Source of the DNA: Cytophagaceae bacterium
GTDB taxonomy: Bacteria; Bacteroidota; Bacteroidia; Cytophagales; Flexibacteraceae
Length of the DNA stretch: 64,000 nt
Direction: 5' to 3'
Assembly: GCA_027490155.1 (NCBI GenBank)
Contig: JAIXYP010000062.1
Location: 1-64,000 of the forward strand
In this document: one piece after another, positions 8,533-59,315 of the stretch
How positions within the stretch are numbered: position 1 is the first letter of the stretch
Layout: each line of letters opens with the position of its first letter
Position numbers and translations under genes: made by a program
Notes under the pieces: generated by a model
The model's input: the letters and a program-made list of their open reading frames with translations, nothing else
What the model was told of the DNA's origin: nothing
Databases searched by the model: none

Positions 8533-8656
8533 TTGTCTGAATTAGGATTTTAGAAATAAGATTTAAAGGATAGGCTTGCAGACACTGCAAAGACATGCGT
8601 TTTGCGCAGTCGTTTTGCCTCAGGGTATTCGTAACCGTCCAATCCAAGTTCAGGCA
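8533..8656. repeat. Dispersed TIR element, copy A (in a divergent promoter region)
   Basis: Left end TTGTCTGAATTAGGATT and right end CCAATCCAAGTTCAGGCA are imperfect inverted repeats, and next to the left end is the family core TTTTAGAAATAAGATT. The copy is about 124 bp, shorter than the 140-152 bp of most others. It occupies the middle of the 378 bp gap between the MocR-like gene (minus) and the SRPBCC gene (plus), so unlike the other copies it lies in a promoter region rather than behind a stop codon. A C8A7 tract (8661-8675) follows directly. Nothing else is recognisable in the gap. Confidence 0.7.
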
Positions 8657-24344: not shown

Positions 24345-24371
24345 AAAGCCACCTTCGGGTGGCTTTTTTAT
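24345..24371 (+). terminator. Intrinsic terminator of the DPP III gene
   Basis: AAAGCCACC-TTCG-GGTGGCTTTTTTA is a perfect stem with a stable UUCG tetraloop and a run of six T. Confidence 0.9.
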
Positions 24372-24502
24372 TTGATTGAACTAGGTTTGATTGGATTAAT
24401 TGGCATTCATTCGCATTGGAGTGATAGGTGTCTGTCTTTTAGGTATGCAAGGCAGTCTCCATAATCTTATTTCTGGAATCTGAGTTCGGACAGAATCTGA
24501 TG
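24372..24502. repeat. Dispersed TIR element, copy F (degenerate left end)
   Basis: The right end contains the exact family core ATCTTATTTCTGGAATC followed by TGAGTTCGGACAG. TGATAGGTGT in the middle is shared with copy B. The left end TTGATTGAACTAGG is a weak match to the TTGTCTGAAC terminus. It fills the gap between convergent genes and ends 19 bp from the stop codon of the minus-strand gene at 24522. Confidence 0.6.
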
Positions 24503-24521: not shown

Positions 24522-25250
24522 TTACTCCGTCTTCTGATACTCCTTCTTCTTCAGATCACCTCTACGTACAGATTTGATGAAGCGGTTCCAAGCAAAGGGA
24601 TTGAGCAGCTGCAGGCTGGGGGCATTATAGCGGGTTTCTTGCCGCAAGATCTCCTGGCTCATGTAGCTGCGGTAGTTTTCGTTGCTGCTCATGCGGGCGT
24701 TGTACCGGATGCTGTTGAGCATGCCAGGGTCAAGGTTGCGGTGCATGTTGGCCAGCTCGGCTTCTGGCAACTTGAGCGATAGTACTGCCTGTTTGAATAG
24801 CTCTTCAGTAGGGTAGGGAAAGATCTCAATTTCGGGCAGTAGCAAGGTGTCTGCTTTTAAGTAGATAATGACCGATATGGCTTGGCGACCGTCATCAGGG
24901 ATAAAGTAGTATTGCTTGCGGAACCCCGTAGCCGAAACCACGGCACTATCGCCAGCCAAGGTCGCGATCGAAAAATAGCCGTAGAGGTTTGTGCTGGTGC
25001 CACGGCCTGCCTTCGGGATAAAGATGTTGACCCCCGGCACGCCCACTTGGTCATCCCCACTGACGACGAGGCCACTAACCTGTACGATGCGCTTGTTGAG
25101 CCTCTGTGGCTGGACGTCCTCTGGTTTGGTGGTGGTTTTGGCAGGTGGGCTGCTAGGTTTGGGCTGAACTTGTGCACTAAGGTCAAAGCTCAGGAGCAGA
25201 CCCAAAAGGCAAATCAAGGTGCTGGATAAAAGGCGTTGGGCGATGGTCAT
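24522..25250 (-). CDS. Exported carboxypeptidase-regulatory-like domain protein
   Basis: 242 residues from the ATG at 25250; upstream in-frame ATGs to 25343 precede the signal peptide and overlap a likely promoter. A signal peptide (MTIAQRLLSSTLICLLGLL, cleaved near SAQ) is followed by a CarboxypepD_reg-like beta-sandwich (QVSGLVVSGDDQVGVPGVNIF, GTSTNLYGYFSI, VVSATGFRKQYY). The C-terminal 100 residues include YRSYMSQEILRQETRYNAP and LLNPFAWNRFI. This form, without a TonB receptor domain, is common in Bacteroidota and of unknown function, usually cell envelope. A dispersed repeat lies directly behind the stop. Confidence 0.75.
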   Translation of the reverse strand: MTIAQRLLSSTLICLLGLLLSFDLSAQVQPKPSSPPAKTTTKPEDVQPQRLNKRIVQVSGLVVSGDDQVGVPGVNIFIPKAGRGTSTNLYGYFSIATLAGDSAVVSATGFRKQYYFIPDDGRQAISVIIYLKADTLLLPEIEIFPYPTEELFKQAVLSLKLPEAELANMHRNLDPGMLNSIRYNARMSSNENYRSYMSQEILRQETRYNAPSLQLLNPFAWNRFIKSVRRGDLKKKEYQKTE

Positions 25251-25340
25251 CAACTGCTGGTAGGGTTTTGGGTAGCTGGTGTTTGCTGCGTTAGGGCAGG
25301 CTGCTAATCTACTTACGTTTAGCGTCATCAGATATCCTGA

Positions 25341-25348
25341 CAAAGGTA
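25341..25348 (-). promoter_or_regulatory. Bacteroidota -7 promoter box (TACCTTTG, minus strand)
   Basis: CAAAGGTA on the plus strand reads TACCTTTG on the minus strand, a perfect TAnnTTTG. It lies about 90 bp upstream of the ATG at 25250 and overlaps the alternative start at 25343, favouring the downstream start. Confidence 0.4.
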
Positions 25349-25480
25349 AATCTGGATCAGGAACTCAAGGTCGCAAATATCAGGCTTCTGATCCTAATCC
25401 TACGTTAAAGTCAGCTTGCTATTCGTAGCCTTGGGTGGGCAAACCTATAACAGGAATTGTGCCAATCTGCTGATCGCCCT

Positions 25481-27559
25481 TTAGCGGATCAGGGTAACCA
25501 TCTGGGTTTGCGAAATGGCCTTGCCGAACTCGTCCTTACCCGTCACGATCGCAACATAAACATCAATGGGCGCGCGGCTGCCACCCACCAATCCATCCCA
25601 TCCCAGGTTTGGGTCCGACCCTTCGTACACCACCAATCCCCAGCGGTTCATGATCCTGATAGAGAACTCGGACATAAACTGCGCCTGTACCAAATAGAGG
25701 TCATTGATTTTGTCATCATTCGGCGAGAAGGCGTTCGGCATCAGGATCCCCGATACTTGGCGCACCTCGTCTATGTTGCTGTAGGCAGTATCCACAATAT
25801 TGGTGTCTGGCACAATCTTGATCCGGAACCGCAGCAGTTGGCTACTCTCTATCCGCTCCCTAAGTTCGTACACGTTAGTATCCCTAGGCAAGGCAAAGGT
25901 CTTGATCACCTCATCAGTCATCTTGTTAAGCAACTGAAGCTCATAGCGTTGTGGGACCTTAGGCCAGCCTAGGTACTCTGACCATTTGATAAAAGTATAG
26001 GCCGGGTTGACGCCCGTCGAAGTCAGCACAGTGCCAGCCACACGGTTACTTTCAGCCGACACATTACCACATGAGTCCGAATACTGGAGGGTATAGAAAT
26101 GGCGCCGCAGGGTGGTTTCGTTTAGCTCATCAAAGTAGGTCAGGCGACTAGTAGTATCAGTGCGTGAGGCCACAGTAGAGGCATTCAGATAACGCCGGAT
26201 GGTGTAGTATTTAACGGCAAAGTTGGTAGGCGGTCGCCAAGTTAGGCGCGACAACATACCAATTTTGGTCACCGTCAGGGTCTGAAGCCGCGGCGGGATC
26301 TTGGCACTACGGCCTAGGGTGCATGCCCGCAAGGACGTGATCCGGAGCTGCGTCGATTGGCCAGATCCGTAGGGATAGCTATAGCCATAGGTCAGCGCAT
26401 AGCAGAACTGTTTTTTGCAAGTGATGGCCGAGTCACGAAGGGTAAGCCCCGCCACCAAGGACCCCGTCGGCATCGTGGTACGGAGCAATGCTACTTGGTT
26501 TTTGGTTAGGAGTACCTCCACTGGGCGGCTTGCAACGGTCTGGGGCGTGCTCGAGGCACCATATTGCAGCTGGATGTACTCGTTCTGGCTATTGGTCCGG
26601 ACAAAAGACATACAAAACGGAATCACCGCGATCGTCGTGCCACATTCGTCTTGGCAGGTCAGGCGGAAACACCTAGTGCCAGTCGGCACATTCGTGATCC
26701 GGATATTGTTTGAGTCTATGGAACTGAAGGGATGTGTCTGGTAGGTTGTACCTACCCAAATGTCGAGTTTGTACACATAGCCGATCCTGCTTCGGAGCCT
26801 GACGTCAATTTCGGTCTGCCCACGCTGATTGACGATCACAGAGTCTGGTCCTAAAAGGGCCGACCTCAGCGGAACAGTTAGTGTCGTGTCCTGCCCACAG
26901 TTATAGAGGCTCCGGACATTGATGCGCGCGGGGTTAGCTGCCAATCCGTTGTACCGATGGGATAGGCTCGCAACCGAGGCCATGCTGTTGGCAGTGGTGT
27001 CCTGCTTGCCATCACCATAAGTGATGATAAAACGCTCGCCCTCAATCTTCGGGATCTGGACCTGCACCAAGAAGTTGTCACATGCTCGGACGCTAGGCTC
27101 AGGTTTGCGAGGCTGCAGGATGTAGATCGTCTTGTAGGTATAGAGATTGGTGCCACCCACCAAGATGCCCTGCCCTAGGCGGTATTTGCCAGGCTGGGTA
27201 TAACGGATGGTATCGACCCCTGGCCTTCCGTTGATGATGAAACGCTGGTTGCTACTGTCAGGGATATAATAGACATTGGTCCCGACCACGCAGTTCCGGA
27301 CCGTGATTTTGCCTGGGGCGCATTGTGCCTCCGAACCTACGATACTGAAACAGGGGACTTGTGCCAAACTAGACCTTAGGGTGGCCAAAACCACTAGGCA
27401 GATGATCATCACCTTCAATAACCACGAGGCTGTCTTTGCCTTGCCCCGACCGATAGGGGGCGGTGTGGATCGGGGCAAATGGTCACGTTGGTCCTGACAT
27501 CGTCGGATGCTGGGGCCGGCCAATTGCCACTGTGATGGTTTCGTTTCTGCTGGAGACAT
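25481..27559 (-). CDS. Secreted protein with T9SS type B (gliding-associated) C-terminal domain
   Basis: 692 residues. The hydrophobic segment at about 51-66 (MIICLVVLATLRSSLAQ) is a signal peptide; the real start could be the ATG at 27409, since the preceding 50 residues are polar and atypical. The body is beta-rich with several immunoglobulin/FN3-like units (KIGMLSRLTWRPPTNFAVKYYTIRR). The last 85 residues are a type B sorting domain: MPNAFSPNDDKINDLY, FSIRIMNRWGLVVYEG, GWDG. Such proteins are surface-exposed or released by the T9SS and in gliding species often work in adhesion. Specific ligand unknown. The 137 bp upstream of the next gene on this strand hold no terminator that I can see. 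Confidence 0.85.
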   Translation of the reverse strand: MSPAETKPSQWQLAGPSIRRCQDQRDHLPRSTPPPIGRGKAKTASWLLKVMIICLVVLATLRSSLAQVPCFSIVGSEAQCAPGKITVRNCVVGTNVYYIPDSSNQRFIINGRPGVDTIRYTQPGKYRLGQGILVGGTNLYTYKTIYILQPRKPEPSVRACDNFLVQVQIPKIEGERFIITYGDGKQDTTANSMASVASLSHRYNGLAANPARINVRSLYNCGQDTTLTVPLRSALLGPDSVIVNQRGQTEIDVRLRSRIGYVYKLDIWVGTTYQTHPFSSIDSNNIRITNVPTGTRCFRLTCQDECGTTIAVIPFCMSFVRTNSQNEYIQLQYGASSTPQTVASRPVEVLLTKNQVALLRTTMPTGSLVAGLTLRDSAITCKKQFCYALTYGYSYPYGSGQSTQLRITSLRACTLGRSAKIPPRLQTLTVTKIGMLSRLTWRPPTNFAVKYYTIRRYLNASTVASRTDTTSRLTYFDELNETTLRRHFYTLQYSDSCGNVSAESNRVAGTVLTSTGVNPAYTFIKWSEYLGWPKVPQRYELQLLNKMTDEVIKTFALPRDTNVYELRERIESSQLLRFRIKIVPDTNIVDTAYSNIDEVRQVSGILMPNAFSPNDDKINDLYLVQAQFMSEFSIRIMNRWGLVVYEGSDPNLGWDGLVGGSRAPIDVYVAIVTGKDEFGKAISQTQMVTLIR

Positions 27560-27792
27560 AGCTAGGATGGCTTTCTGGCCAGTAGTTGACCGCTATGGGC
27601 AGTCAGATAGGGTCAGCGGGCCGAAGTAATACGGTCGGTCACCTTTTAGGTTAAGAACCATTATACTGTCGTAAAATTGTACAGACTAGGCCTCAAATGC
27701 AAGACCTGCCATCAAGATCCTACCAATGCTGGGTTTAGGCCAATCCCATAGTTGACATATTTAGGACCAAAACCAAGAGGTAGGATGGGCCT
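27560..27792. other. Gap with no recognised feature
   Basis: Together with the terminator at 27793-27831 this makes up most of the 330 bp gap between the T9SS type B gene and ilvE. No open frame, repeat-family copy or promoter box was found. Confidence 0.5.
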
Positions 27793-27831
27793 AAAAAGCA
27801 CCCAGCCTCGGTTGATGGCCAAGGCTGGGTG
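27793..27831 (-). terminator. Intrinsic terminator of ilvE (minus strand)
   Basis: Read on the minus strand, CACCCAGCCT pairs with AGGCTGGGTG around a 13-nt loop and is followed by CTTTTT. It lies about 60 bp beyond the ilvE stop. Confidence 0.8.
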
Positions 27832-27889
27832 ATCGTCGGACCAGCTAGTGCTAGTCCCATTTGTGTAAATCTGGTATCACTAATGGTAT

Positions 27890-28963
27890 CTAGACCGTCA
27901 GGTTCCAGCCGTGTTCGTCAGCGATGCGGCCATACTTCAGGTCGTCCATGTACTTACGGACTTTGGCGCTGAACTCACGGGTTTCGATGGCTGGGAGTTC
28001 GTGGTCGATGCCGTCACAGCTGATGGCCTTGATGGCGGCAATGGTGGCGGCGGTGCCAGCACCAAAGGCCTCTTGCAGGCGCCCAGTTTGGTTCGCCTCG
28101 ATGACCTCCGTGACAGATACACGACGCTCCTCGACCTGCATACCCCAATGGCGTGCGATCTTGAGAATGCTATCACGGGTGATGCCACTCAGGACCGAAG
28201 TGCCAAGCTGTGGGGTCACTAGTTTACCGTCGATGACGAACATGACGTTCATCGTGCCGCTTTCTTCGATGTACTCATGCTCGACATGGTCCGTCCAGAG
28301 AAGCTGATGATAACCTTCTTGCTGGGCTAGTTTGCTCGGGAGCATGGCACCGGCATAATTGCCAGCACACTTAGCGAAGCCTGTGCCACCTTCGGCAGCA
28401 CGGGTATAATGGCGCTCGACCTTAACCTTGACAGGCTCCGAATAATAGGCCCCTACTGGGCAACAGAAGATCACAAAACGATAGGTCTCGGACGGACGCA
28501 CACCGACAAAACTATCTGTGGCGTACATAAAAGGGCGGATATACAAGGAGCTACCATCGGCCCCAGGCACCCAAGCCCGGTCCATATCCACCAAGACGCG
28601 CAGTGCGTTGATGAACATCTCCTCAGTGACCGCAGGCATACACATCCTGAGGGCACTCTCGTTAAACCGCGAAAAATTTTCGTGTGGGCGGAAAATGTTA
28701 ACCTCACCTTCAGCAGATCGATAGGCCTTGAGGCCCTCGAAGATCGCCTGACCATAGTGCAAGGAGCTCATGGCTGGCATCATCTCCAACGGTCCGTACG
28801 GCACGATCCTGAGGTCTTGCCATTGGCCATCATAATAGTCTGCCACAACCATGTGGTCGGCAAAATGCTGGCCGAACTTCAGATGCTCGAAGTCAACTTC
28901 GTTGATCCGGGAAACGGGTGCCGCATTGATAGGGAAGGTAGTAGAGGCGACTGATAGACTCAT
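27890..28963 (-). CDS. ilvE: Branched-chain amino acid aminotransferase
   Basis: 357 residues, a fold-type IV PLP enzyme that interconverts Leu, Ile and Val with their 2-oxo acids using glutamate/2-oxoglutarate. The PLP lysine is K198 within GTGFAKCAGNYAGAM. Other family landmarks are HYGQAIFEGLKAYR, YIRPFMYAT, EESGTMNVMFV and LSGITRDSIL. The length and the N-terminal MSLSV...INEVDFEHLKFGQHFADHM region fit the eukaryote-like/Bacteroidota BCAT group. The upstream gap (28964-29223) contains a 16 bp palindrome AGACCCAAATGGGTCT at 29041-29056 and a short stretch near 29090-29112 weakly resembling the flank of the dispersed repeats. No other ilv/leu gene is adjacent. Confidence 0.95.
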   Translation of the reverse strand: MSLSVASTTFPINAAPVSRINEVDFEHLKFGQHFADHMVVADYYDGQWQDLRIVPYGPLEMMPAMSSLHYGQAIFEGLKAYRSAEGEVNIFRPHENFSRFNESALRMCMPAVTEEMFINALRVLVDMDRAWVPGADGSSLYIRPFMYATDSFVGVRPSETYRFVIFCCPVGAYYSEPVKVKVERHYTRAAEGGTGFAKCAGNYAGAMLPSKLAQQEGYHQLLWTDHVEHEYIEESGTMNVMFVIDGKLVTPQLGTSVLSGITRDSILKIARHWGMQVEERRVSVTEVIEANQTGRLQEAFGAGTAATIAAIKAISCDGIDHELPAIETREFSAKVRKYMDDLKYGRIADEHGWNLTV

Positions 28964-29223
28964 GGCTGGCTTGTAAGGCGTTTGTCTGACTGAAGTTTGG
29001 TGTATGCCAACGTGCTGCCGCCTGCGCCCTGATCCTACCTAGACCCAAATGGGTCTCAAGGAATTGTCATAAGCCTGCCGAACGACAAGTTAGCAAGACA
29101 AAGATTGCCTTTTTGTTCCAGATTGTTGCTGCCAACTGCTCTTATATGACCCCAATGGTAGACAAATCGACCTTCATTCGACCCAAAGGGGGCCTTGCAT
29201 TGCCCGCGAGTCTTGTTTTGGGC

Positions 29224-30153
29224 TTATTCCCAGAGGCGATAGTGCTCTAGGCTTACGGACTGGCGGAAAAACAACTCGGTGCTGGCCACAAAGCTGTCGG
29301 TATAGTCGCTAACGTAGAAATGATGTTTGGGCCTGGTACTCTGATCGCCTCCTGCTAAAACCCGGTTTAGCAAATTGTGGGTTACTAGCAAGGACTTCAT
29401 AGCCTCGGCGACAATCATGCTGCTATCGATCACGGCAACGGACTGGCCTTTGCGTGCATAATAGTCCTGTATCTGGGGCAGGATTAGCGGATAGTGCGTA
29501 CAGCCCAAAATCAGCGCCTTGATGCCCTGCAAACTAGGGTGATCTAGGTAGTTGTCGATGATCGTCTGGCTGATCTGGTTGTTATAGAACCCCTCCTCGA
29601 TCATCGGTGCCAGCAGAGGAGTAGCGACTTCAGCCAGCTGCACACCAGCCCCTGACAGCTGCACTTTGTCCTGATAGACATGGCTGCCGACGGTCTTTTT
29701 TGTCCCGATCAGGCCAACGGACTGTCCCGCAAAAGCCGTTGTGATGTAGGCCACAACAGGGTCGATGACGTTCAGGACCTGCGCTCGGGTTCCGACGTAT
29801 GCCTTTACTAAATCAAACGCTGCCGCCGAGGCCGAGTTGCACGCAATCAGGATGGTCTTGACATTTTGACGCAGCAACACATCACAGATTTTGACGCTAT
29901 ACGCCTGGATGGCAGCCGTGCTTTTGTCGCCGTAGGGCAGGTGGGCCGTGTCCCCAAAGTAGATCATACGCTCAGATGGCAGCACTTGGCTCAGGGCGTA
30001 GGCCACCGTCAGCCCGCCGATCCCACTATCGAAAACCCCAATCGGATCTGAAGCTCCCACCACGTGCGCTAGGTGTGCCTCTGCTGCCGGGACCGATGGC
30101 TCAATGCTATGTTCTCTGGTTGGCTGATTGAGTTGTGTCGAGGCTATGGACAT
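29224..30153 (-). CDS. murI: Glutamate racemase
   Basis: 309 residues from the ATG at 30153; a frame extension to 30219 overlaps a probable promoter. It converts L- to D-glutamate for peptidoglycan. The two catalytic cysteines sit in ACNSASA and GCTHYPL, and the N-terminal VFDSGIGGLTV and YFGDTAHLPYG motifs are intact. About 44 polar residues precede the conserved start, longer than usual, so the true start may be further downstream. In many Bacteroidota murI follows bam/skp genes, but here it stands alone between ilvE and an intergenic region. Confidence 0.95.
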   Translation of the reverse strand: MSIASTQLNQPTREHSIEPSVPAAEAHLAHVVGASDPIGVFDSGIGGLTVAYALSQVLPSERMIYFGDTAHLPYGDKSTAAIQAYSVKICDVLLRQNVKTILIACNSASAAAFDLVKAYVGTRAQVLNVIDPVVAYITTAFAGQSVGLIGTKKTVGSHVYQDKVQLSGAGVQLAEVATPLLAPMIEEGFYNNQISQTIIDNYLDHPSLQGIKALILGCTHYPLILPQIQDYYARKGQSVAVIDSSMIVAEAMKSLLVTHNLLNRVLAGGDQSTRPKHHFYVSDYTDSFVASTELFFRQSVSLEHYRLWE

Positions 30154-30216
30154 GAGGGTGGTGGCGGTGTATTGGTCTCTTAATATGGGACTGAAAGCAA
30201 AACAACAATAGGCAAG

Positions 30217-30224
30217 CAAAGGTA
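30217..30224 (-). promoter_or_regulatory. Bacteroidota -7 promoter box (TACCTTTG, minus strand) for murI
   Basis: CAAAGGTA on the plus strand gives a perfect TAnnTTTG on the minus strand, 63 bp before the murI ATG. No -33 TTTG at the standard distance. The remaining gap up to copy B (30225-30640) holds no supported gene. Confidence 0.4.
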
Positions 30225-30640
30225 TGGGTTTGGCCTATTAGTGGTGCTAGGGCCAAATCAGCCACTAGGCTAGTCGATCCCTACCGATTAGGTGCAAAAC
30301 AACGGACATAGTCCACTACTATCTTGAGCATCAGGTGCATTGGCAGATCAAATGGCCAGATTGGGGGTTGCCTTTGCCATCGTTGCAGAGCTCCCAACAA
30401 CAGGTCATCCACAAAGAACTTGACTGCCCATGGGCCAATATATAAAGCTTAGACATAGAAGGCCCAGAACTAGACTGGTTTGGGCCACCTTGCTCAATGG
30501 TCTAGTTTGGGTGATCTTTCCCGCATCTGCAAGACAACCCAAGACGGTGAATGTCATCAAGGACTTGTGTTACCCCAAGGATATGATCAATCCTAACTTA
30601 TACCGCAGTTATAGACAAAGGCGTTAGAGAACACGCGTTT

Positions 30641-30782
30641 CTGTCTGAACTCAGATTCCAGAAATAAGATCTGACGGATTAGTGAGATAGACTTGTAAAC
30701 ACCTATCAATCAGGCTGCTACTCCCCATTTAGTTAACACCACACACAAATCCCAAAAAATCCGTTCAATTATAGTTCAGACA
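30641..30782. repeat. Dispersed TIR element, copy B
   Basis: About 142 bp. The left end is CTGTCTGAACTCAGATTCC and the right end AATTATAGTTCAGACA; the outer TGTCTGAACT and AGTTCAGACA are exact inverted repeats. The family core CCAGAAATAAGAT adjoins the left end and ACACACAAATCCC lies towards the right. It ends 5 bp from the stop codon of the minus-strand T9SS gene at 30788, and has the same orientation as copy C on the other side of that gene. Confidence 0.8.
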
Positions 30783-30787
30783 ATAAA

Positions 30788-32371
30788 CTACCGCACAACA
30801 ACCCGCCCGGCCATGACACCGGCATAATTTGTAGCCCGCCAAAAGTAGAGGCCAGGGGATGTGTTTTGGAGCTGGACCTGCTGCCCCGGCATGATGCCGG
30901 TCTCGAACAAAAGCTGACCAGTGGTGGTATAGACCTGCAAATTAGCCTCTTGGGTTAGCCCTCGTAGCTGGATAGTGCCATCTGTGGTAGGGTTGGGATA
31001 GGCCACGACGTCTGCCAGATCTGCCCGAGGACCACCAGCCAATGACAAGGGGCTATATGGCCGACCGATATTGCTTAGCCTTGCTAGGTAGAAACTGCGG
31101 GCGTTTTGGCCGCCGAGCTGCGTAAACCCTACCATCACTGCCGAGCTGTCGGACTCGTAATAACAATCATAAAAGGCAAAAGGACTATTGGGGACAGTAG
31201 TATTGATAGGTACTTGCCAAATGATAGTGCTATCAGGTGCTGTTTTGCGAATGTTATTGGTATATGGATTTGGTCTTGAGGCAAGGTCAAAAATACTGCC
31301 GTCTGAATTGATCTTGGGCCTAAAACTAAAACCACTAACAACGGTCCGTTGCCAAAGCAATTGATTGGATGTATTAATCATCCCCAATGTATTTTGGCTA
31401 CTATTCGAAGTGATAGGGGTAACTGTAAAAACCAGGTTTCCCGATGGATGTTGATAAATACCCGCATTATACGCCGCCCCTCGATTCAGCGCCTGGAAGG
31501 CATACTGAACCCTGCCCGTACTATCGCCAAGGCTATCAAGGCGTTGGTAGGCCACTTTATTATCTGCTGTGCCACTGATGAGGTAGCCTTTGTCGGGCGT
31601 TTGCTCGGCATAACAGCCACAAGCGAAACTCGCACTTGGGTTGTAAAAACGCTCAAACTCCGTGATGCTGGTACGGGGATTAAACTTGAGCAAAAACCAG
31701 TCACATTGCCGCCCTCGCCGTACCATACTTGGGGTAATGTCACCATAGACAACATAACAACTATCTGAACTTATGAACATCCCCGAAGGGCCATAGCGGT
31801 ATTGGCTTGCATTATAGGGTATGCGTCTTAGGAGGGTGCCAGCTGTGTCGAGTTCGAGGATTTCGATAGCAGATGTGTTCTGGTTGGAAATAGTTGAGTA
31901 GGTAGTACCTACAGTTAATACCAGTTTATTCCCAAATTTGACAAGCTTGATGGAATAACCATACGCCTCAATATTGCGGCGCCATACGGTATCAAGATTT
32001 TTATTGAGACGATATAGCAAAACGGTACGTGCAAAAGTACTTGATTGTTGATGCCAATAACCGTATTTATTGGAGAACCCAGTTGCAAAATAGGTACTGG
32101 TGTCCCATTTCATAATATTGCTAAGTCCATCAAAGGTAGTGTAGGACCAATACTTTTGACTGATTACACCTTGTCCATTGGTCGGTAAAGTGTAGAAGAA
32201 CGTAATCAAGGTTAGGAAAACAAGTGAGCCAATGTTAAGGCCCCTCAAAGTGTTGTAAAACTTGTTCTCGGTGACGGTTGGGTTGCGAGCGTAGGTAACG
32301 ATGCCATGACCTTTCAGCCCGACTATAGGGTCGCATTGCCGTAGTTTCGATATGTAGGAATAATGCCTCAT
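30788..32371 (-). CDS. Secreted T9SS type A protein, repeat-bounded paralogue 1
   Basis: About 527 residues from the ATG at 32371. The frame stays open to 32479, but those codons lie in repeat copy C. The only good signal peptide (RGLNIGSLVFLTLITFFYT, cleaved near NGQG) begins at a TTG at 32248, a likelier true start. The body has beta-propeller-like strands (GYLISGTADNKVAYQRLDS, ISSDSCYVVYGDITPS). The end carries VVAYPNPTTDG and GLYFWRA, a T9SS type A domain. Residues before it (SFYLARLSNIGRPYSPLSL) match the paralogue at 55459 (DFYFTKIANFGRPFDPLTE), as do the last bases of the gene. Codon use is more AT-rich than that of neighbouring housekeeping genes. Function unknown; the cargo is exported to the surface. 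Confidence 0.8.
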   Translation of the reverse strand: MRHYSYISKLRQCDPIVGLKGHGIVTYARNPTVTENKFYNTLRGLNIGSLVFLTLITFFYTLPTNGQGVISQKYWSYTTFDGLSNIMKWDTSTYFATGFSNKYGYWHQQSSTFARTVLLYRLNKNLDTVWRRNIEAYGYSIKLVKFGNKLVLTVGTTYSTISNQNTSAIEILELDTAGTLLRRIPYNASQYRYGPSGMFISSDSCYVVYGDITPSMVRRGRQCDWFLLKFNPRTSITEFERFYNPSASFACGCYAEQTPDKGYLISGTADNKVAYQRLDSLGDSTGRVQYAFQALNRGAAYNAGIYQHPSGNLVFTVTPITSNSSQNTLGMINTSNQLLWQRTVVSGFSFRPKINSDGSIFDLASRPNPYTNNIRKTAPDSTIIWQVPINTTVPNSPFAFYDCYYESDSSAVMVGFTQLGGQNARSFYLARLSNIGRPYSPLSLAGGPRADLADVVAYPNPTTDGTIQLRGLTQEANLQVYTTTGQLLFETGIMPGQQVQLQNTSPGLYFWRATNYAGVMAGRVVVR

Positions 32372-32415
32372 CGTTAGCAAGACCAAGATAGGCAAGAAAA
32401 GGTTGCCTTTGGGTT

Positions 32416-32567
32416 CTGTCTGAACTGGGATTTTAGAAATAAGATTGAAAGGAATATAGTGATATGCTTGCAAAGGCATGCTATTGCTTGCGGCTCGTTC
32501 ACATGGGTAGATGAGTACACACGAATCTCTTACATCCTTACAATCTGGTGAATCTCAGTTCAGACAA
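32416..32567. repeat. Dispersed TIR element, copy C (best-preserved ends)
   Basis: About 152 bp. Left TIR TGTCTGAACTGGGATT at 32417-32432 and right TIR AATCTCAGTTCAGACA at 32551-32566 match in 15 of 16 positions. Internal landmarks are AGAAATAAGATT on the left and GTACACACGAATC on the right. A second ACACACGAATCC follows just outside. About 37 bp outside the left end (32372-32416) are also shared with the flank of copy D. It lies 18 bp behind the stop codon of the gene at 32586 and overlaps the extended 5' frame of the T9SS gene. Confidence 0.85.
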
Positions 32568-32585
32568 AACACACACGAATCCCCC

Positions 32586-33158
32586 CTAACTCGGGAATTG
32601 ATTAATATAATCCCACACATCACTCACATATTCTTTCCGGAGGGTGGGGCTTAGGATAACATTACCAGAGGTGTCTTCAGGGAACTTAAAATTGCGTTTG
32701 TCCACAGGCAATAGGCGCGAGGCCCGCTCGACAGGCGCATATGCTTGGTACTTGAGCTCATTGCCGTCAACATCTTCGGTATCCTGCCAGGCAGTGACCA
32801 GGGTGGCATTCTTGTACCAACCAACGATGTAATGTTGCGAAGTCTGTGGTTTGCGGGCCACTAGCACAATACAGATCGGATGGATGCGGGCACGGTCTGG
32901 GTCCACCTTAAGTTTCAGCAGATTTAAACGGCGTGTATGGATGCCACAATAATCAATATAATATCGCTCATACTCAGGTTCGGCAGCCGATTTGGTCGGC
33001 AGAAAATTAAATCCATCACTACCGTCGTGTCGCTCGAACAAATTGACTTGTGTTTCGTCCTCGGTCAGGACTGCTTCGTCATCTTCGCCTCCTTGGTAGG
33101 ATTGTAGCCATGCGACCTTAAAAAAAACAATTGGCTTCTGAATGATTGTTGACTTCAT
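32586..33158 (-). CDS. Small protein with a possible modified-DNA-reader-like domain
   Basis: 190 residues from the ATG at 33158; the frame runs on to 33458, but those codons look non-coding. KPIVFFKVAWLQSYQGG (about 9-24), then GFNFLPT, and ICIVLVARKPQTSQHYIVG with WYKNATLVTAWQ (about 100-125) recall, from memory, an N-terminal domain often fused to HNH or other restriction endonucleases, where the motif reads roughly VVWVATRP...VVGWYKNATVY. Here no nuclease domain is attached, so the protein would be a stand-alone reader or regulator. The family match is not certain and function is unknown. It lies beside repeat copy C. Confidence 0.5.
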   Translation of the reverse strand: MKSTIIQKPIVFFKVAWLQSYQGGEDDEAVLTEDETQVNLFERHDGSDGFNFLPTKSAAEPEYERYYIDYCGIHTRRLNLLKLKVDPDRARIHPICIVLVARKPQTSQHYIVGWYKNATLVTAWQDTEDVDGNELKYQAYAPVERASRLLPVDKRNFKFPEDTSGNVILSPTLRKEYVSDVWDYINQFPS

Positions 33159-33470
33159 TGTTGGTTGCCACTTGGTGGCGAGTGGTCTAAAAAATGAGGC
33201 ATTGCTGTCGCCAAACTGACCACAAGCTAAGCACCATTGTTTGCCAAGGAAATCCTGAGCTGATGCACAAATATAGACAGAAACCCTATTGGTGGCATCT
33301 GGTGCCGCTTCCTGTGATTTTTTGAGCGATGCCGGGCCAGATTTAGCTTTGCTTAGCCGTTGCTGAAATGGCCGAATACCAATGCCAATATTTGGACTGG
33401 ATGGCAGGAGAGCTAACGGGCGTTCCGTACTTGGCCATCCATTTGCTGGACCCAACAACCCCCATCAATG

Positions 33471-54212: not shown

Positions 54213-54239
54213 ACCTACATTAGCCCTATCTTGGCATCT

Positions 54240-55043
54240 ATGTTCCGCAACCCATCCGCATTTCTGACCGAAATGATGACCCGTAACCCGGTCCTGACTT
54301 GGGTAACGATTGGCCATGTCGTTTTATCTCTTGTCCTCATAGTCCTGTTGATTTTAGATCAGGACACGATGATCCTGGGCATTAACCGCTGGATTAAGCC
54401 GCTCAAGTTTGCGGTCTCGATCGCGATCTTCACGGGCACAATGGCTTGGCTTTTACCCGACTGTGTGCCACCAAGCTCAGCACGGCTTTACGGCTGGATT
54501 TTGTCCCTGATGATGATTATCGAGATTGGGCTTATCACGATGCAGGCGGCGCGGGGTGTCCGCTCCCACAACAATATAGCTACAGGGTTTGATGCTGCCG
54601 TCTTTGGACTGATGGGCACCGCCATCCTGATCAACACCTTGGCGATGGCAGCACTTATGTTACAAGTAATCGTGTCTCGACCCATGGCCAGCATAGCAGA
54701 GGCACCCAGCTATCAGGAGGCCATCATTTGGGGATTAGGTATCTTTTTGTTTGCGAGCTATGTAGGCTTTTATATGGCAGGGGTCGCCCGCCAACCGATT
54801 GTCGGTGGGCCAGCAGGCGGACCTGGCCTACCCTTCCTGAACTGGAGCCTTCAGTTTGGGGACCTGAGGATAGCGCATTTTGTAGGGCTCCATGCCTTGC
54901 AGCTCATCCCTTTATTTGCAGCCTTTTTGCTGAGCCAAGGGATCACGAGCAGTACTTGGACCCGTGTTTTGGGTGTTGCCTTCAGTGTATTGGTGCTGCT
55001 GGCCTTTTTGCAAGCAAAGGCTGGGCGGCCGCTGGGTGGGTGA
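54240..55043 (+). CDS. Seven-helix membrane protein of unknown function
   Basis: 267 residues from the ATG at 54240 (a TTG at 54231 is in frame). About seven hydrophobic helices: TWVTIGHVVLSLVLIVLLI, KFAVSIAIFTGTMAWLL, LYGWILSLMMIIEIGLITM, GLMGTAILINTLAMAALML, AIIWGLGIFLFASYVGFYM, FVGLHALQLIPLFAAFLL and ARVLGVAFSVLVLLAFLQ-like. Conserved-looking polar spots inside membranes are GINRWIKPLKF, ARGVRSHNN and H in FVGLHALQ, which could hold a cofactor such as haem. I do not recognise a named family. It is last in the operon; a dispersed repeat copy begins 12 bp behind its stop. Confidence 0.75.
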   Translation: MFRNPSAFLTEMMTRNPVLTWVTIGHVVLSLVLIVLLILDQDTMILGINRWIKPLKFAVSIAIFTGTMAWLLPDCVPPSSARLYGWILSLMMIIEIGLITMQAARGVRSHNNIATGFDAAVFGLMGTAILINTLAMAALMLQVIVSRPMASIAEAPSYQEAIIWGLGIFLFASYVGFYMAGVARQPIVGGPAGGPGLPFLNWSLQFGDLRIAHFVGLHALQLIPLFAAFLLSQGITSSTWTRVLGVAFSVLVLLAFLQAKAGRPLGG

Positions 55044-55054
55044 GGGATTGTGAA

Positions 55055-55205
55055 TTGACTAAACCATGTTTAGACAGATTGTAAGAATTAAAGGGATTCG
55101 TGTGTACCCATCCCCACATGTTAGCTTGCTGCCTAACCTTGAGGTGTTGGCAAGCCTATCCCACCAATCCGTCAAATCGTATTTCTGGAATCCGAGTTCA
55201 CATAG
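55055..55205. repeat. Dispersed TIR element, copy D
   Basis: About 151 bp. Left TTGACTAAACCATGTTTAGACAG, then CAGATTGTAAG and GGGATTCGTGTGTAC. The right end is CAAATCGTATTTCTGGAATC followed by CGAGTTCACATA. The outer ends have diverged more than in copy C. About 37 bp beyond the right end (AGGCAACCTTTTCTT...TATCTTGGTCTTG) are shared with the flank of copy C. It is 12 bp behind the stop of the membrane-protein gene and upstream of the T9SS paralogue, with the same orientation as copy E. Confidence 0.75.
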
Positions 55206-55262
55206 ATCCAGTAGGCAACCTTTTCTTTCTTATCTTGGTCTTGTTACAAAAGTCGCAGCCTT

Positions 55263-55454
55263 ATGATACAGCACGTTTCGCCTCAATTCCGCCAATTGCT
55301 AGTGTGGGGTGGCCTAATCTCAATCCAAGGCTGTACTATATGGGCCAACCCTTTAGGCACCAAACTGGATCTTGACCTATCCAGTGTTGCCTCTGGTCTT
55401 TATCTCCTGCATTTTGACCAAGTAGCCACACCATACAAGTTGATCAAACAATAA
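55263..55454 (+). pseudogene. Truncated T9SS type A sorting-domain remnant
   Basis: In-frame end GTKLDLDLSSVASGLYLLHF followed by ATPYKLIKQ and stop looks exactly like the last 40 residues of a type A sorting domain (compare the tail LDLGSLRAGIYHYQI...LVKQ of the hydrolase at 41432). No upstream body, signal peptide or continuation is present between copy D and this fragment. It ends 4 bp before the ATG of the next T9SS gene. Probably the 3' relic of a gene deleted between repeat copies. Confidence 0.55.
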
Positions 55455-55458
55455 GGTC

Positions 55459-56922
55459 ATGAAATACTTCGTTGCTCTTTTGTTGACACTGTTAGGTTAC
55501 CAAGCAACTTGTCAACAAGTTGTCTGGACGCGCATTCATTCTGTAACGATCAACTCAGATCGCTTATATTCAATCACAAGTTTAGATACATCGGGCTATT
55601 ATGCTGTGGGTGGAGGCCGATTGTTTACGGTTAATGTTTCGACTTATGATTATGATGGGACACACATTGTCAAAATTGGCAGTGATGGTCGCTTGCTTTG
55701 GACACGTCCACTGGGATTGGCGGGTAATGGTAAAGGGGTAGTACCAATTGATGGACGCACATTAGCGGAGGTGACAGAGGCCTTAACTTTTGTTAATCCG
55801 TCTGATCGTGGTGGTTTTGCCTTACAGATAGTTGACTCAACAGGCAGCGTCATACGTACTACAATTGTGAAGGAGCCTGGTTATTCCACCCAACCATTTG
55901 GTATGTTCAAGGCCAAGAATGGTGACCTAATTGTTTATGGAAGGTCTAGTTTCGGCCGTATCTACCCAAATACCTACCTTGATTGGTTTTTAGCTCGATT
56001 CACCCCTCAAGGTTACCTTGATTGGCTAAAAGTTTATAATCCAGGTTCAACTAGTCCAATAGAGTTTGCTGCCTTTAACGATGCCGATGGCAAACTCATT
56101 TTAGGGGGTTCAGTGTCCAATCGGTTGGTGCGTATGGTGGTTGACTCCAATGGGGTGATTGTGGATAGTACTCGCAACTTATTTGTGCCGCCGACAGCAG
56201 GTGGGCCTTACTTTAACTTTGTGCAAAGGTGCCCTGATGGTGGTTTGATTGTACAAACAAGTCCTGAGCCCAGTTTATCTATTCCGCCTACTCTTCATAT
56301 TGTTAAACTACGATCAGACTATAGTCAGGAATGGATAATATCACACCCATCTTCCAATTCCATAATCCCAATTAGGATTATGGCAGATGGCACTTTTATT
56401 GTTGTAAGGCTAGACTGGGCCAGTAATACCTACTTAATGACCAAGTATGACGCCCAAAGTAATGTACTCTGGGAAATTCCAATTGCTAATTTGCCAAGTT
56501 CAATTAGTAATTTGTGGCTTTATGGTATCACCTACAACCCTGATCAAAGTGCGGTTTTATGTGGTTTTGTCTCTAATGGAACACGTGTACCATCAACTGG
56601 TCAAGATTTTTACTTTACCAAAATCGCCAACTTCGGTCGGCCTTTTGACCCGCTTACAGAGCTGGGTGGTCCTCGGGAGTTAACGCAATCGGTAGCCCCA
56701 GTTGCATTCCCCAATCCTACCTCAGGGCAGGTGCAGTTCCGCGGCTTAGATCGGCCAGGGCAATTGCGGTTATTCACTACAGCTGGCTCCGTAGCCCTAG
56801 ATGCGCCTATCTTGCCAGACCAAGCCCTAGACCTTACTGGGTTGGTGCCAGGGTTATATCTCTATCGCCTCACCGTGGCAGATGGCAAAGTGCCTTTTGT
56901 TGGGCGGGTTGTGGTGCGGTAG
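55459..56922 (+). CDS. Secreted T9SS type A protein, repeat-bounded paralogue 2
   Basis: 487 residues. Signal peptide about 1-18 (FVALLLTLLGYQATCQ). The body consists of repeated short beta-strand units (HIVKIGSDGRLLWTRPLG, LHIVKLRSDYSQEWII, YLMTKYDAQSNVLWEIPI) suggesting a beta-propeller. The end carries VAPVAFPNPTSGQVQFRGL and PGLYLYRLTV, a T9SS type A domain ending VGRVVVR, nearly the same as in the protein at 30788 (AGRVVVR). Codon usage is visibly more AT-rich than that of the surrounding operons. Repeat copies D and E flank it in direct orientation. Function unknown; the two paralogues are diverged over most of their length. Confidence 0.85.
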   Translation: MKYFVALLLTLLGYQATCQQVVWTRIHSVTINSDRLYSITSLDTSGYYAVGGGRLFTVNVSTYDYDGTHIVKIGSDGRLLWTRPLGLAGNGKGVVPIDGRTLAEVTEALTFVNPSDRGGFALQIVDSTGSVIRTTIVKEPGYSTQPFGMFKAKNGDLIVYGRSSFGRIYPNTYLDWFLARFTPQGYLDWLKVYNPGSTSPIEFAAFNDADGKLILGGSVSNRLVRMVVDSNGVIVDSTRNLFVPPTAGGPYFNFVQRCPDGGLIVQTSPEPSLSIPPTLHIVKLRSDYSQEWIISHPSSNSIIPIRIMADGTFIVVRLDWASNTYLMTKYDAQSNVLWEIPIANLPSSISNLWLYGITYNPDQSAVLCGFVSNGTRVPSTGQDFYFTKIANFGRPFDPLTELGGPRELTQSVAPVAFPNPTSGQVQFRGLDRPGQLRLFTTAGSVALDAPILPDQALDLTGLVPGLYLYRLTVADGKVPFVGRVVVR

Positions 56923-56934
56923 GAGTATTTTCTT

Positions 56935-57086
56935 TTGTCTAAACCATGATTAAACAGATTGTAAGGATGAAAGGGATTCGTGTGTGCTCATTCCTAAATA
57001 GGTACAAGCCACAAGTAATAGCAGGACTTTATAAGCTCAACCCATCAATCCGTTGAATCTTATTTCTGGAATCCGAGATCAGATAA
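56935..57086. repeat. Dispersed TIR element, copy E
   Basis: About 152 bp: TTGTCTAAACCATGATT, CAGATTGTAAGGATG and GGGATTCGTGTGTGC on the left; TTGAATCTTATTTCTGGAATC and CGAGATCAGATAA on the right. It starts 12 bp after the stop of the T9SS paralogue (plus strand) and ends 2 bp before the stop of the methyltransferase gene (minus strand), so it fills the whole gap between two convergent genes. Confidence 0.8.
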
Positions 57087-57088
57087 AC

Positions 57089-57973
57089 CTATCCCCCCAT
57101 CACCAAACTATATACCAACGGCAATCGACCCGCATGGGCTGCGGGTTGGAAGCGCCCTGGACTCACCTCGACAGATTGGGCAAATATGCCGTAGGGAGAG
57201 TAGTTGTATTCCTGAAAGTTGCGGAGCGGTAGGTGTTTACCAAGGGCGGTGATGACCTCAGCTAGGCCGTGATTCCAGGTCATGGCGGGGAGGTTGATCT
57301 GGGCTGCATTGTCGGCATAGGTCGCCTCTTCGGTCTCGACAATGGGGTCAGATTTGTGGTAAGTATAGATGACCTTTTCTAGGTTATCATCAAACATCCA
57401 GACCACGGGGTGGAACTCCACAAAGACAAAATGCCCCCCAGGCCGTAATAATGCCGCTACTTGTGCTGCCCAACGGTCAAGGTCCGGCAGCCAACCAATG
57501 GTGCCATAACTGCTGAAGACCACATCATATTGCCCATAGTGCTCGGCAGGAATATCACAAACATCAGCTTCAACAAATGTGGCTTTGACGCCTAGAATAT
57601 CGGCAGCTCGACGGGCTTCGGTGATCGCTTCTGGCGAAAAGTCTAGGCCTGTAACCTTGGATCCCAGTTTGGTTAGCGATAGAGTATCCTGCCCAAAATG
57701 GCATTGTAGGTGCATCACATCCTTACCATCAAGCCCGCCAATTTGGGCAAATAAGGCCAGTTCGATTTCACGAAGGGAGTTGTAGCCGTTGTGGAATTCG
57801 GCCAAGAAGCGGCCATGTTCGTAAAACCCAGACTGCAAATGCACTTGGGTACGAGCCGCCCATAGGGCCTTGTTGATGGCAATATAGTTTTCCAATTGGT
57901 TTGGTGTAAAGAGGTGGTAGATGAATTGAATTAGTAAAATTGAATCTAGGCCTTGGACTAACGATAGCATCAA
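57089..57973 (-). CDS. Class I SAM-dependent methyltransferase
   Basis: 294 residues as an open frame from 57973; family resemblance begins at ENYIAINKALWAARTQVH, so the true start is probably the TTG at 57895. The SAM motif I is VMHLQCHFGQDTLSL, then VTGLDFSPEAI (motif with acidic D for the ribose) and DVVFSSYGTIGWLPD. GGHFVFVEFHP forms the later strands. Substrate is unknown; this group is usually annotated as UbiE/small-molecule methyltransferases. It starts 8 bp after the DUF2238 gene and is likely co-transcribed with it. Confidence 0.85.
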   Translation of the reverse strand: MMLSLVQGLDSILLIQFIYHLFTPNQLENYIAINKALWAARTQVHLQSGFYEHGRFLAEFHNGYNSLREIELALFAQIGGLDGKDVMHLQCHFGQDTLSLTKLGSKVTGLDFSPEAITEARRAADILGVKATFVEADVCDIPAEHYGQYDVVFSSYGTIGWLPDLDRWAAQVAALLRPGGHFVFVEFHPVVWMFDDNLEKVIYTYHKSDPIVETEEATYADNAAQINLPAMTWNHGLAEVITALGKHLPLRNFQEYNYSPYGIFAQSVEVSPGRFQPAAHAGRLPLVYSLVMGG

Positions 57974-57981
57974 GGCACTCG

Positions 57982-58641
57982 TTATGTGGTTGATGGATTG
58001 GCATTCCTAGGCCTACCTATTCCACATAGCCAGACAAAAAACATCAGCAACACCGCGCCGACTGTGGCAATAAACATATCCTTCTGCGCATCCCAAGGGT
58101 CTCCTTGGTGGCCGAGGTATTCGGGGCCCAGCTCGGGGTAGGCAGTGCTAGCCCAAAGCCACTCTACCAGCTCAAAACCTGCACTGATACTCAGGGTCAG
58201 CTCGATGGGCATCAGCAGGGCCCAATAATAGGGTAGTTTGAGATAGCTACGGCCGAAGTCAAAGAGGGCATAGCTCGCCAAGAACCCCAGCGAAAAGTGC
58301 ACAATCCGATCATAATAGTTGCGGTCCGTTTCCAGCACACGCATCAGCCAAAGTCCTAGACTATTTTCGACATAGCTATTCATCGCCCCGTAGATATGCA
58401 GCAGCATAAAGGATGTCAGCATCAGGTAGCTCAGGTCACCGAGGGGTTTCTGCCGATAACTCATGCCCAAGATGATGATCAGCAAGGTGGACAGGGCATT
58501 TTCGACCAGCCAGTTGGGCCCGTTAACGGTCAGGACGGCGGTGGTACCGAAGGCTACTAGGTAGCCAATGACCAATGCTTGTAGGACATAGTTGCGCCTA
58601 AAGGGTGTTGGGGTTTGTTGGCCTAAAGTGGTGAAGTGCAT
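57982..58641 (-). CDS. DUF2238 (YjdF-like) membrane protein
   Basis: 219 residues with about six membrane helices. The DUF2238 pattern is evident: LLHIYGAMNSYV, DRIVHFSLGFLASY, AGFELVEWLWA, YLGHQGDPWDAQKDM and a last helix FIATVGAVLLMFFV. Conserved His, Glu and Asp residues in or near the membrane suggest metal or substrate binding, but no function is established for the family. It lies directly upstream of a methyltransferase gene in the same operon. Confidence 0.88.
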   Translation of the reverse strand: MHFTTLGQQTPTPFRRNYVLQALVIGYLVAFGTTAVLTVNGPNWLVENALSTLLIIILGMSYRQKPLGDLSYLMLTSFMLLHIYGAMNSYVENSLGLWLMRVLETDRNYYDRIVHFSLGFLASYALFDFGRSYLKLPYYWALLMPIELTLSISAGFELVEWLWASTAYPELGPEYLGHQGDPWDAQKDMFIATVGAVLLMFFVWLCGIGRPRNANPSTT

Positions 58642-58769
58642 AGCTCAGTTTTAGATATGGGCTTGGGCGAACCATCAATACAATTGGTCCGCCATGACTG
58701 CCAAACTAGTGCATTTAAATCAAGACGTGCATGCCATTCCTGATTCTGGTCTGCTATTTGTGGCCTTGA

Positions 58770-59315
58770 ATGTACCCAGGTTGCCCTAATTACGGGCACC
58801 TAATACCATTTAGCCTGCATCAATTGACCTATCTCGTACATCCTGACCAACAAGCAGCACTAAGGCGCTGGATCGGCAGCACACCTGTTTTGGTTTATGA
58901 TGGCCCCTGCCCACTCTGTAATCGGGTTGTCAAGTTTCTGCTTTGGGCAGACACCAAACAGCGGTTACTATATACCACCCAGCAAATGGATGCAGGACAG
59001 GCGTTGCTGCGCTATTATGACTTGGGTCTTACTAAAGTAGATGACCAACAAGACCAAGCAATCCAGCCCACCCTAACAAACGAAGTCTGGCTTGCAACCG
59101 ATGGTAGGCTATATACAGGTGCTGATGCAGCCCTCCAAACCCTGATAAGCATAGGTGGATTTTGGGCATTGATGGGGCGTGTTGGCTTGTGGTTCCCGAC
59201 CCGATTTAGGGATTGGGTCTATGCCTGGATTAGTCGAAATCGGTATGACCTCCTAAGCCCTTTTACGTGTGAGCTGCCAAACCACAAACGCTTACAGTTT
59301 CCCCCTGCCAGTTAA
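58770..59315 (+). CDS. DCC-family (DUF393) thiol-disulfide oxidoreductase-like protein
   Basis: 181 residues. The family hallmark DxxCPLC appears as YDGPCPLCNRVVKFLLWAD, with C47 and C50 as the putative redox pair. GADAALQTLISIGGFWALM and WISRNRYDLL are also typical. A terminal Cys (SPFTCELP) takes the place of the usual C-terminal cysteine motif. About 39 residues precede the domain, longer than normal; the ATG at 58770 is the only upstream start. Predicted thioredoxin-like disulfide exchange; partner unknown. Confidence 0.85.
   Translation: MYPGCPNYGHLIPFSLHQLTYLVHPDQQAALRRWIGSTPVLVYDGPCPLCNRVVKFLLWADTKQRLLYTTQQMDAGQALLRYYDLGLTKVDDQQDQAIQPTLTNEVWLATDGRLYTGADAALQTLISIGGFWALMGRVGLWFPTRFRDWVYAWISRNRYDLLSPFTCELPNHKRLQFPPAS

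Follow-up and report, generated by a model that had tools for sequence, protein, structure and literature searches.

Two repeat-bounded T9SS gene units in the window

The window (the whole stretch of 64,000 nucleotides analyzed here, G000:C7:1-64000) is part of the host genome G000, an assembly of 3.99 Mb in 69 contigs from a genus of freshwater Bacteroidota, and it contains two units, U1 and U2, in each of which a gene for a T9SS-secreted protein lies between two copies of a non-coding repeat (Table 1). The preliminary description had placed these genes between direct copies B and C and direct copies D and E, respectively, and the coordinates obtained with our repeat model, R1, agree with that placement: each of the four copies is oriented like the gene that it bounds, and both pairs are direct. 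The designation of both genes as T9SS genes held with the NCBIfam model of the T9SS type A sorting domain (TIGR04183), for which their scores of 33.6 and 28.2 bits exceed the cut-off of 23, but not with the Pfam sorting-domain model, which gave the U1 gene 24.5 bits against a cut-off of 27 and did not have the U2 gene among the matches listed. The last codons reported as common to both genes are real and represent the end of the sorting domain (GRVVVR*). Overall the two genes are distant paralogs (28% amino acid identity, E 2.2e-42), and the N-termini of the unit proteins resemble signal peptides, as judged by eye. An AlphaFold2 model of the U2 protein was all-beta and propeller-like, at modest confidence (mean pLDDT 67); a Foldseek search with it returned assorted propellers, with the T9SS protein PorZ at rank 7, and no function was derived from it.

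Table 1. Repeat copies, unit genes and associated features in the window
Feature	Position	Strand	Remarks
Weak repeat copy	8534..8655	-	R1 match, E 3.6e-8; outside any unit
Weak repeat copy A	24370..24491	+	R1 match, E 4.1e-8; outside any unit
Repeat copy B	30642..30782	-	R1 match, E 2.3e-24; 3' of gene 30788-32371
U1 gene, T9SS-secreted protein	30788..32371	-	527-aa ORF; TIGR04183 33.6 bits; G001 homolog
U1 leader motif	32375..32406	-	Pattern match, 0 mismatches
Repeat copy C	32417..32566	-	R1 match, E 2.8e-27; 5' of U1; 19 bp past stop of 290-aa gene 32586-33458
Repeat copy D	55057..55202	+	R1 match, E 3.6e-28; 13 bp past stop of gene 54231-55043
U2 leader motif	55215..55246	+	Pattern match, 1 mismatch
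U2 mini-ORF	55263..55454	+	63 codons; signal-peptide-like start joined to T9SS sorting-domain end
U2 gene, T9SS-secreted protein	55459..56922	+	487 aa; TIGR04183 28.2 bits
Repeat copy E	56936..57084	+	R1 match, E 1.3e-27; 13 bp past U2 gene stop

Comparisons between species were made with G001, a Cytophagaceae MAG that was the sole congener of G000 among the 39 genomes compared, and the tests described below therefore rest on two species, both represented by fragmented assemblies. The U1 gene has a homolog in G001 (C107:7912-9387, 86% amino acid identity), where two genes are found at that place, the homolog being preceded by a 301-aa T9SS gene. About the first 43 codons of that preceding gene survive in the window, fused in frame to the U1 gene, and the first ~43 codons of the U1 ORF as read from the ATG at 32371 are thus a remnant of another gene. 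Just 3' of copy E, window positions 57086-58904 carry a methyltransferase gene and a 219-aa gene, for which there was no G001 match at E 1e-15 among the matches listed (40/60 candidates scored), while both sides of the stretch match; the lack of a match may be lineage-specific or due to an assembly gap.

The repeat and its association with T9SS genes

With 79 candidates scored per genome on both strands, model R1 gave at least 68 matches in G000 and at least 55 in G001, and hand-merging of the matches listed yielded at least 43 and 31 repeat places, or 40 and 28 loci, respectively. The repeat is an element of ~149 bp with 16-bp terminal inverted repeats and a mean column identity of 72% over 36 aligned copies from the two genomes. 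When viewed against the attC-like folded sites of integron cassettes, its consensus showed only a 7-pair terminal stem, without covariation, and an RNA structure was dropped as a candidate on these grounds. No excess of target-site duplications over shuffles was found in the 36 copies for lengths of 2-9. MITE and REP-type repeats are short, dispersed, non-coding, intergenic sequences with terminal inverted repeats; the element resembles them in each of these respects and differs in its length, in showing no excess of target-site duplications, and in its strong link to the ends of T9SS genes. Weak matches were also present in 9 of the 37 other genomes (among the matches listed, best E 1.3e-5), which may mean that this class of repeats predates the unit system. 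Inspection of the 36 copies by eye showed a T in front of the element in nearly every case and, in many left flanks, a remnant of the left half of another copy (GTGTGTGCTT), so that repeats are apt to lie stacked in tandem.

Gene calling followed a longest-ORF rule, and a local HMM built from 28 sorting domains picked out the T9SS genes; the G000 genome as a whole has at least 150 such domains. In the 466 kb of G000 fetched around repeats (304 called genes of at least 100 aa), T9SS genes made up 17 of the 43 genes ending within 100 bp of a repeat versus 13 of the 244 with none near (Fisher 1.4e-8), and 2 of the 17 that only start near one, the regions having been chosen for holding repeats and related units not being independent. 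The corresponding numbers for G001 were 8 of 24 ending beside a repeat, 3 of 14 only starting near and 11 of 93 with none near (p 0.017). Where the gene was a T9SS gene, the repeat lay in its orientation in 14 of 17 cases in G000 and 6 of 8 in G001; for other genes this was so in 13 of 26 and 9 of 16. Among successive direct copies, intervals no longer than 6.2 kb held T9SS genes in eight of ten instances (5/7 in G000, 3/3 in G001), a count that omits a 10.25-kb direct interval without a T9SS gene (8/11 with it) and an inverted interval, also without one, and that includes the B-C interval by hand, since the called ORF overlaps the repeat there and the automatic listing was therefore empty. 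Eleven of the 12 listed intervals were direct and one was inverted. Random genes, then, are found beside the repeats less often than T9SS genes are; an equal frequency was what the preliminary description had named as counting against it.

The bounded appearance of these genes must be read with some care, as 20 of the 40 G000 repeat loci (among the matches listed) begin 0-25 bp past a stop codon on their own strand (11 at T9SS genes, 9 at others), so that it partly reflects a preference for gene ends. The repeat might accordingly be a MITE/REP-like 3' element that settles past stops, with T9SS genes turning over rapidly for reasons of their own and repeats marking tolerant intergenic positions; a gene would then look bounded when it and its upstream neighbor each carry a repeat. 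The 26 non-T9SS genes among the 43 that end beside a repeat fit this explanation, as do units at four sites and single repeats elsewhere that are old and common to both species. We nevertheless consider it unlikely, given the excess of T9SS genes at repeats and in short direct intervals, the finding that at one swap site (C7:70-76k and its G001 counterpart, below) collinearity breaks at the repeats, and the invariable position of the leader beside a repeat.

Leader and mini-ORF

The preliminary description had noted about 37 bp of homology outside the upstream repeat copy, and this was borne out as a leader of ~32-37 bp, placed 9-15 bases after the upstream repeat, in which U1 and U2 match at 29 of 31 bases. 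At up to three mismatches the motif occurs eight times in G000, in every case just 3' of a repeat, and six times in G001, and all 14 copies abut a repeat. It was not found in the other 37 of the 39 genomes searched with this pattern, which was derived from copies already known and which more diverged leaders would escape.

In ten copies the leader is followed by a mini-ORF (D, C52, C54, C55 and C57 in G000; C138, C345, C115, C298 and C48 in G001), in which a signal-peptide-like start is joined to a sorting-domain end, with the start of a T9SS gene next where the contig continues. The exceptions are C57, which is cut by the contig end, C298, which has a stop, and C48, which has a different tail. 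All ten of these copies have their own leader, which would make a single expression site with silent copies less likely. On G000 contig C31, a 2053-aa ORF ending in the same sorting-domain tail as the mini-ORFs directly precedes a gene of the unit family, and in view of this shared tail the mini-ORFs can be read as the probable collapsed remains of an upstream gene. The mean dN/dS of the mini-ORFs was 0.58, with values of 0.117/0.474 for the tail and 0.324/0.258 for the signal-peptide part, in the seven of ten copies that remained when C57 (contig-end cut), C298 (stop) and C48 (rearranged) were left out. A selected gene was rejected as an identity for the mini-ORF, because signs of constraint are limited to the tail, where conversion could account for them. 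The leader was likewise rejected as a coding signal peptide because of in-frame stops, seen by eye, in some copies (C3, G001 C115 and G001 C48), and inspection by eye against the Bacteroidota promoter motif gave no convincing pair of boxes in the leader.

At two further G000 sites, C3 (L012:9752-10000) and C43 (L006:6951-7150), this leader is found in front of another short ORF, or of what is left of one, a stretch resembling the end of a tail-fiber-type protein; at C3 it is followed by a lipoprotein-like gene. These cases indicate that the leader can accompany more than one gene family. On G001 C48, leader and cut mini-ORF precede a T9SS gene of a different family, which would suit a portable module. 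It is conceivable, if doubtful, that repeat, leader and mini-ORF form a dedicated portable 5' module, such that a T9SS gene joined behind it would become an expressed, exchangeable surface cassette and the population would keep reshuffling the gene at each site.

Comparison of unit sites between the two species

Units have turned over between the two species, as was apparent at the following sites. The flanks of U1 (window positions 25179-30569 and 32551-33272) match G001 C208 at 91% and 90%, and the 1981 bp between them correspond in G001 to 129 bp with one partial repeat, U1 being absent. The U1-homologous unit of G001 instead resides at C107, where the homologous stretch opens with the upstream repeat and extends through the gene into the repeat on the other side, and the outer flanks differ. 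In G000 the place corresponding to C107, C10:5557-6554, has no unit and no repeat was detected in it (right flank 88%, left only 75%); C14 was rejected as the counterpart because it is only 70% alike and C10 fits better. A further G000 unit, on C55 and C49, is missing from G001 C62, on which ~440 bp, with no repeat detected, separate its flanks (88% and 92.5%); from this proximity we infer that C55 and C49 each carry half of a single unit. At C7:70-76k, G000 has T9SS genes of 975 and 656 aa between two repeat positions, and G001 C83 has, between the same two positions, a single T9SS gene, of 849 aa, on the opposite strand. The latter matches the 975-aa gene over ~70 sorting-domain residues (E 4e-5) and the 656-aa gene not significantly (E 0.04), and collinearity (87% and 91%) breaks and resumes at the repeats. 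In total, two G000 units are missing from the G001 sites, one G001 unit is missing from the G000 site, and at one site unrelated T9SS genes replace each other, so that the identical cassette content in relatives that would have spoken against the preliminary description was not what we found.

All checked non-T9SS content at repeats, in contrast, stayed collinear between the species. This included C49:731-7534 (two genes and a repeat), collinear with G001 C62, and C40:26895-35284, whose collinearity with G001 C148 extends through one of the two repeats it contains; the control repeats at C14:37931 and C22:55803 also sit in collinear stretches. The collinearity check covered a subset of G001 contigs, in which no long match was found for C25, C15 and C43.

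The presence of whole units, including both repeats, in one species and not in the other, the different sites of the U1-type unit in G000 and G001, and the 16-bp terminal inverted repeats might all be expected of a composite mobile element, that is, two repeats and a gene moved by a transposase acting on the inverted repeats. The lack of excess target-site duplications in the 36 copies lowers the standing of this explanation, and the mosaic genes described below require recombination anyway; we therefore regard it as very unlikely. Errors of assembly or binning in these metagenome-derived genomes are an even less probable source of the differences, and an extremely improbable one overall. Five G000 contig ends do fall inside unit genes or a mini-ORF (C49, C52, C54, C55 and C57), an identical 111-bp end occurs on C54 and C52, and two G001 contigs, C48 and C368, have a gene end in common and then diverge, but G001 C83, C208 and C62 and G000 C7 span their sites with flanks that are collinear on both sides, and wrong joins would not produce mosaic genes and raised dS within contigs.

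Mosaicism and divergence of unit genes

The unit genes are mosaic between the two species. At the four shared sites (D/C115, C54/C138, C57/C345 and C52a/C298+C192) the coding flanks are mostly 83-99% alike, whereas identity within the three comparable genes falls to 56%, 72% and 61% in 150-bp windows and rises at the ends to as much as 91-96%. The dS of these three genes was 1.03, 0.74 and 1.13, and that of the U1 gene versus its G001 homolog 1.04, compared with a baseline median of 0.40 (5-95% range 0.23-0.70) in 59 other ortholog pairs, which are those above 75% amino acid identity; at a mean of 0.74, the synonymous divergence for C54/C138 only just exceeds that range. Six T9SS genes outside leader units had dS values of 0.40-0.68, within that range.

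Supporting recombination among paralogs was that the nearest relative of the D unit gene changes along its length, being the positional partner over the first 300 alignment columns (91%) and G000 C31 over the next 300 (83% versus 72%). PHI gave z of -15.7 to -18.4 at three window sizes, against -2.8 to 2.1 in 20 recombination-free simulations, on nine of the 13 family rows (C49, C55 and C325 were dropped as partial and C52b was merged with C54). Of the four positional pairs, C52a/C192 came out as sister in the whole-gene tree and C31/C242 clearly did not; the other two are separated by weak branches, several with support <51, so that non-sisterhood is firm only for C31/C242. The nearest-relative shifts, PHI and the simulations together place the unit genes among mosaic paralogs of the kind seen in gene-conversion surface-variation families.

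Probable recombination of surface-protein gene units

Taken together, the best explanation, which we hold to be probable, is that these are surface-protein gene units that recombine, with turnover of units at repeat-marked sites. A typical unit consists of the repeat, the leader, a short or remnant ORF, the T9SS gene and a second repeat, and such units are dispersed over about nine genome sites. Mosaic genes with conserved ends and breakpoints at repeats point to general (RecA-type) homologous recombination, which presumably acts on the units through gene conversion driven by long similar family stretches (gene start, sorting domain, leader and mini-ORF). The repeats may provide extra, poorer homology at the unit edges, leading to deletion, insertion or replacement of whole units, and the outcome would be diversification of exposed secreted proteins.

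The preliminary description had proposed an exchange of cassettes by homologous recombination between repeat-gene-repeat units. Recombination among units is shown by the mosaic genes and PHI, but a leading role of the repeats, with exchange from repeat to repeat, is disfavored by their low identity, their preference for stop codons, the changes inside genes, and the two sites at which unit and repeat are both lacking. The wording we favor is that T9SS units turn over by recombination at sites marked by repeats; to speak of a switching system would be premature.

Several known systems are similar in part. The opa and pilin genes of Neisseria and tprK of Treponema undergo surface variation by gene conversion among dispersed, mosaic paralogs with conserved ends and variable middles. 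The units studied here share these features; a probable difference is that a single expression site with silent copies was not seen, each leader-type unit having its own leader. In Bacteroides fragilis, invertible promoters and shufflons alter surface molecules by recombination. That recombination changes surface molecules in Bacteroidota is common to both cases, while the copies around the window genes are direct and not inverted. Surface virulence factors of Porphyromonas gingivalis are reported to have mosaic variants that are unrelated to strain phylogeny and are attributed to allelic exchange and domain rearrangement (PMC5266723). The likeness is in the mosaic variation of Bacteroidota surface proteins; the difference is that variants and domains of named proteins are concerned there (PMC5266723), whereas the gains, losses and replacements described here affect entire dispersed units flanked by a non-coding repeat, and the genus is an environmental one. 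Repeat-bounded T9SS cassettes appeared in none of the titles listed by literature searches that covered few subscription journals, and searching for the repeat sequence as text gave only unrelated papers among the matches listed.

Diversification of such surface repertoires in environmental Bacteroidota is, to our knowledge, little known. Repeat-marked swap sites with fixed neighbors provide specific loci and junctions that can be tracked in lake metagenomes or cultures, and rapid surface variation in non-pathogenic bacteria thereby becomes testable.

Further arrangements at repeat sites

Three other stretches differ between the assemblies. Between the flanks of the G000 C40 site (C40:95000-105066), G001 C48:5302-13611 carries genes that in G000 are located at C7:101114-107211, together with a repeat, a leader, a cut mini-ORF and a second gene copy. 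It shares a gene end and the start of a repeat with G001 C368 (C368:2986-3247), beyond which the two diverge; possible causes are a mixture of arrangements in the sample, the presence of a second copy, rearrangement or misassembly. At G000 C30:2647-2883, ~236 bp of repeat remnants lie between the end of a T9SS gene and a 334-aa gene, and the same gap in G001 (C189:520-2173) is 1.65 kb long and contains ORFs of 246 and 79 aa as well as two tandem repeats. Finally, a 9-kb stretch of G000 (C53:32687-41846), whose matches to G001 are confined to the repeat and to a piece of 126 bp, has two T9SS genes, of 976 and 690 aa; the former lies between direct repeats and encodes a protein that is 68% identical to the 975-aa protein at C7:70520.
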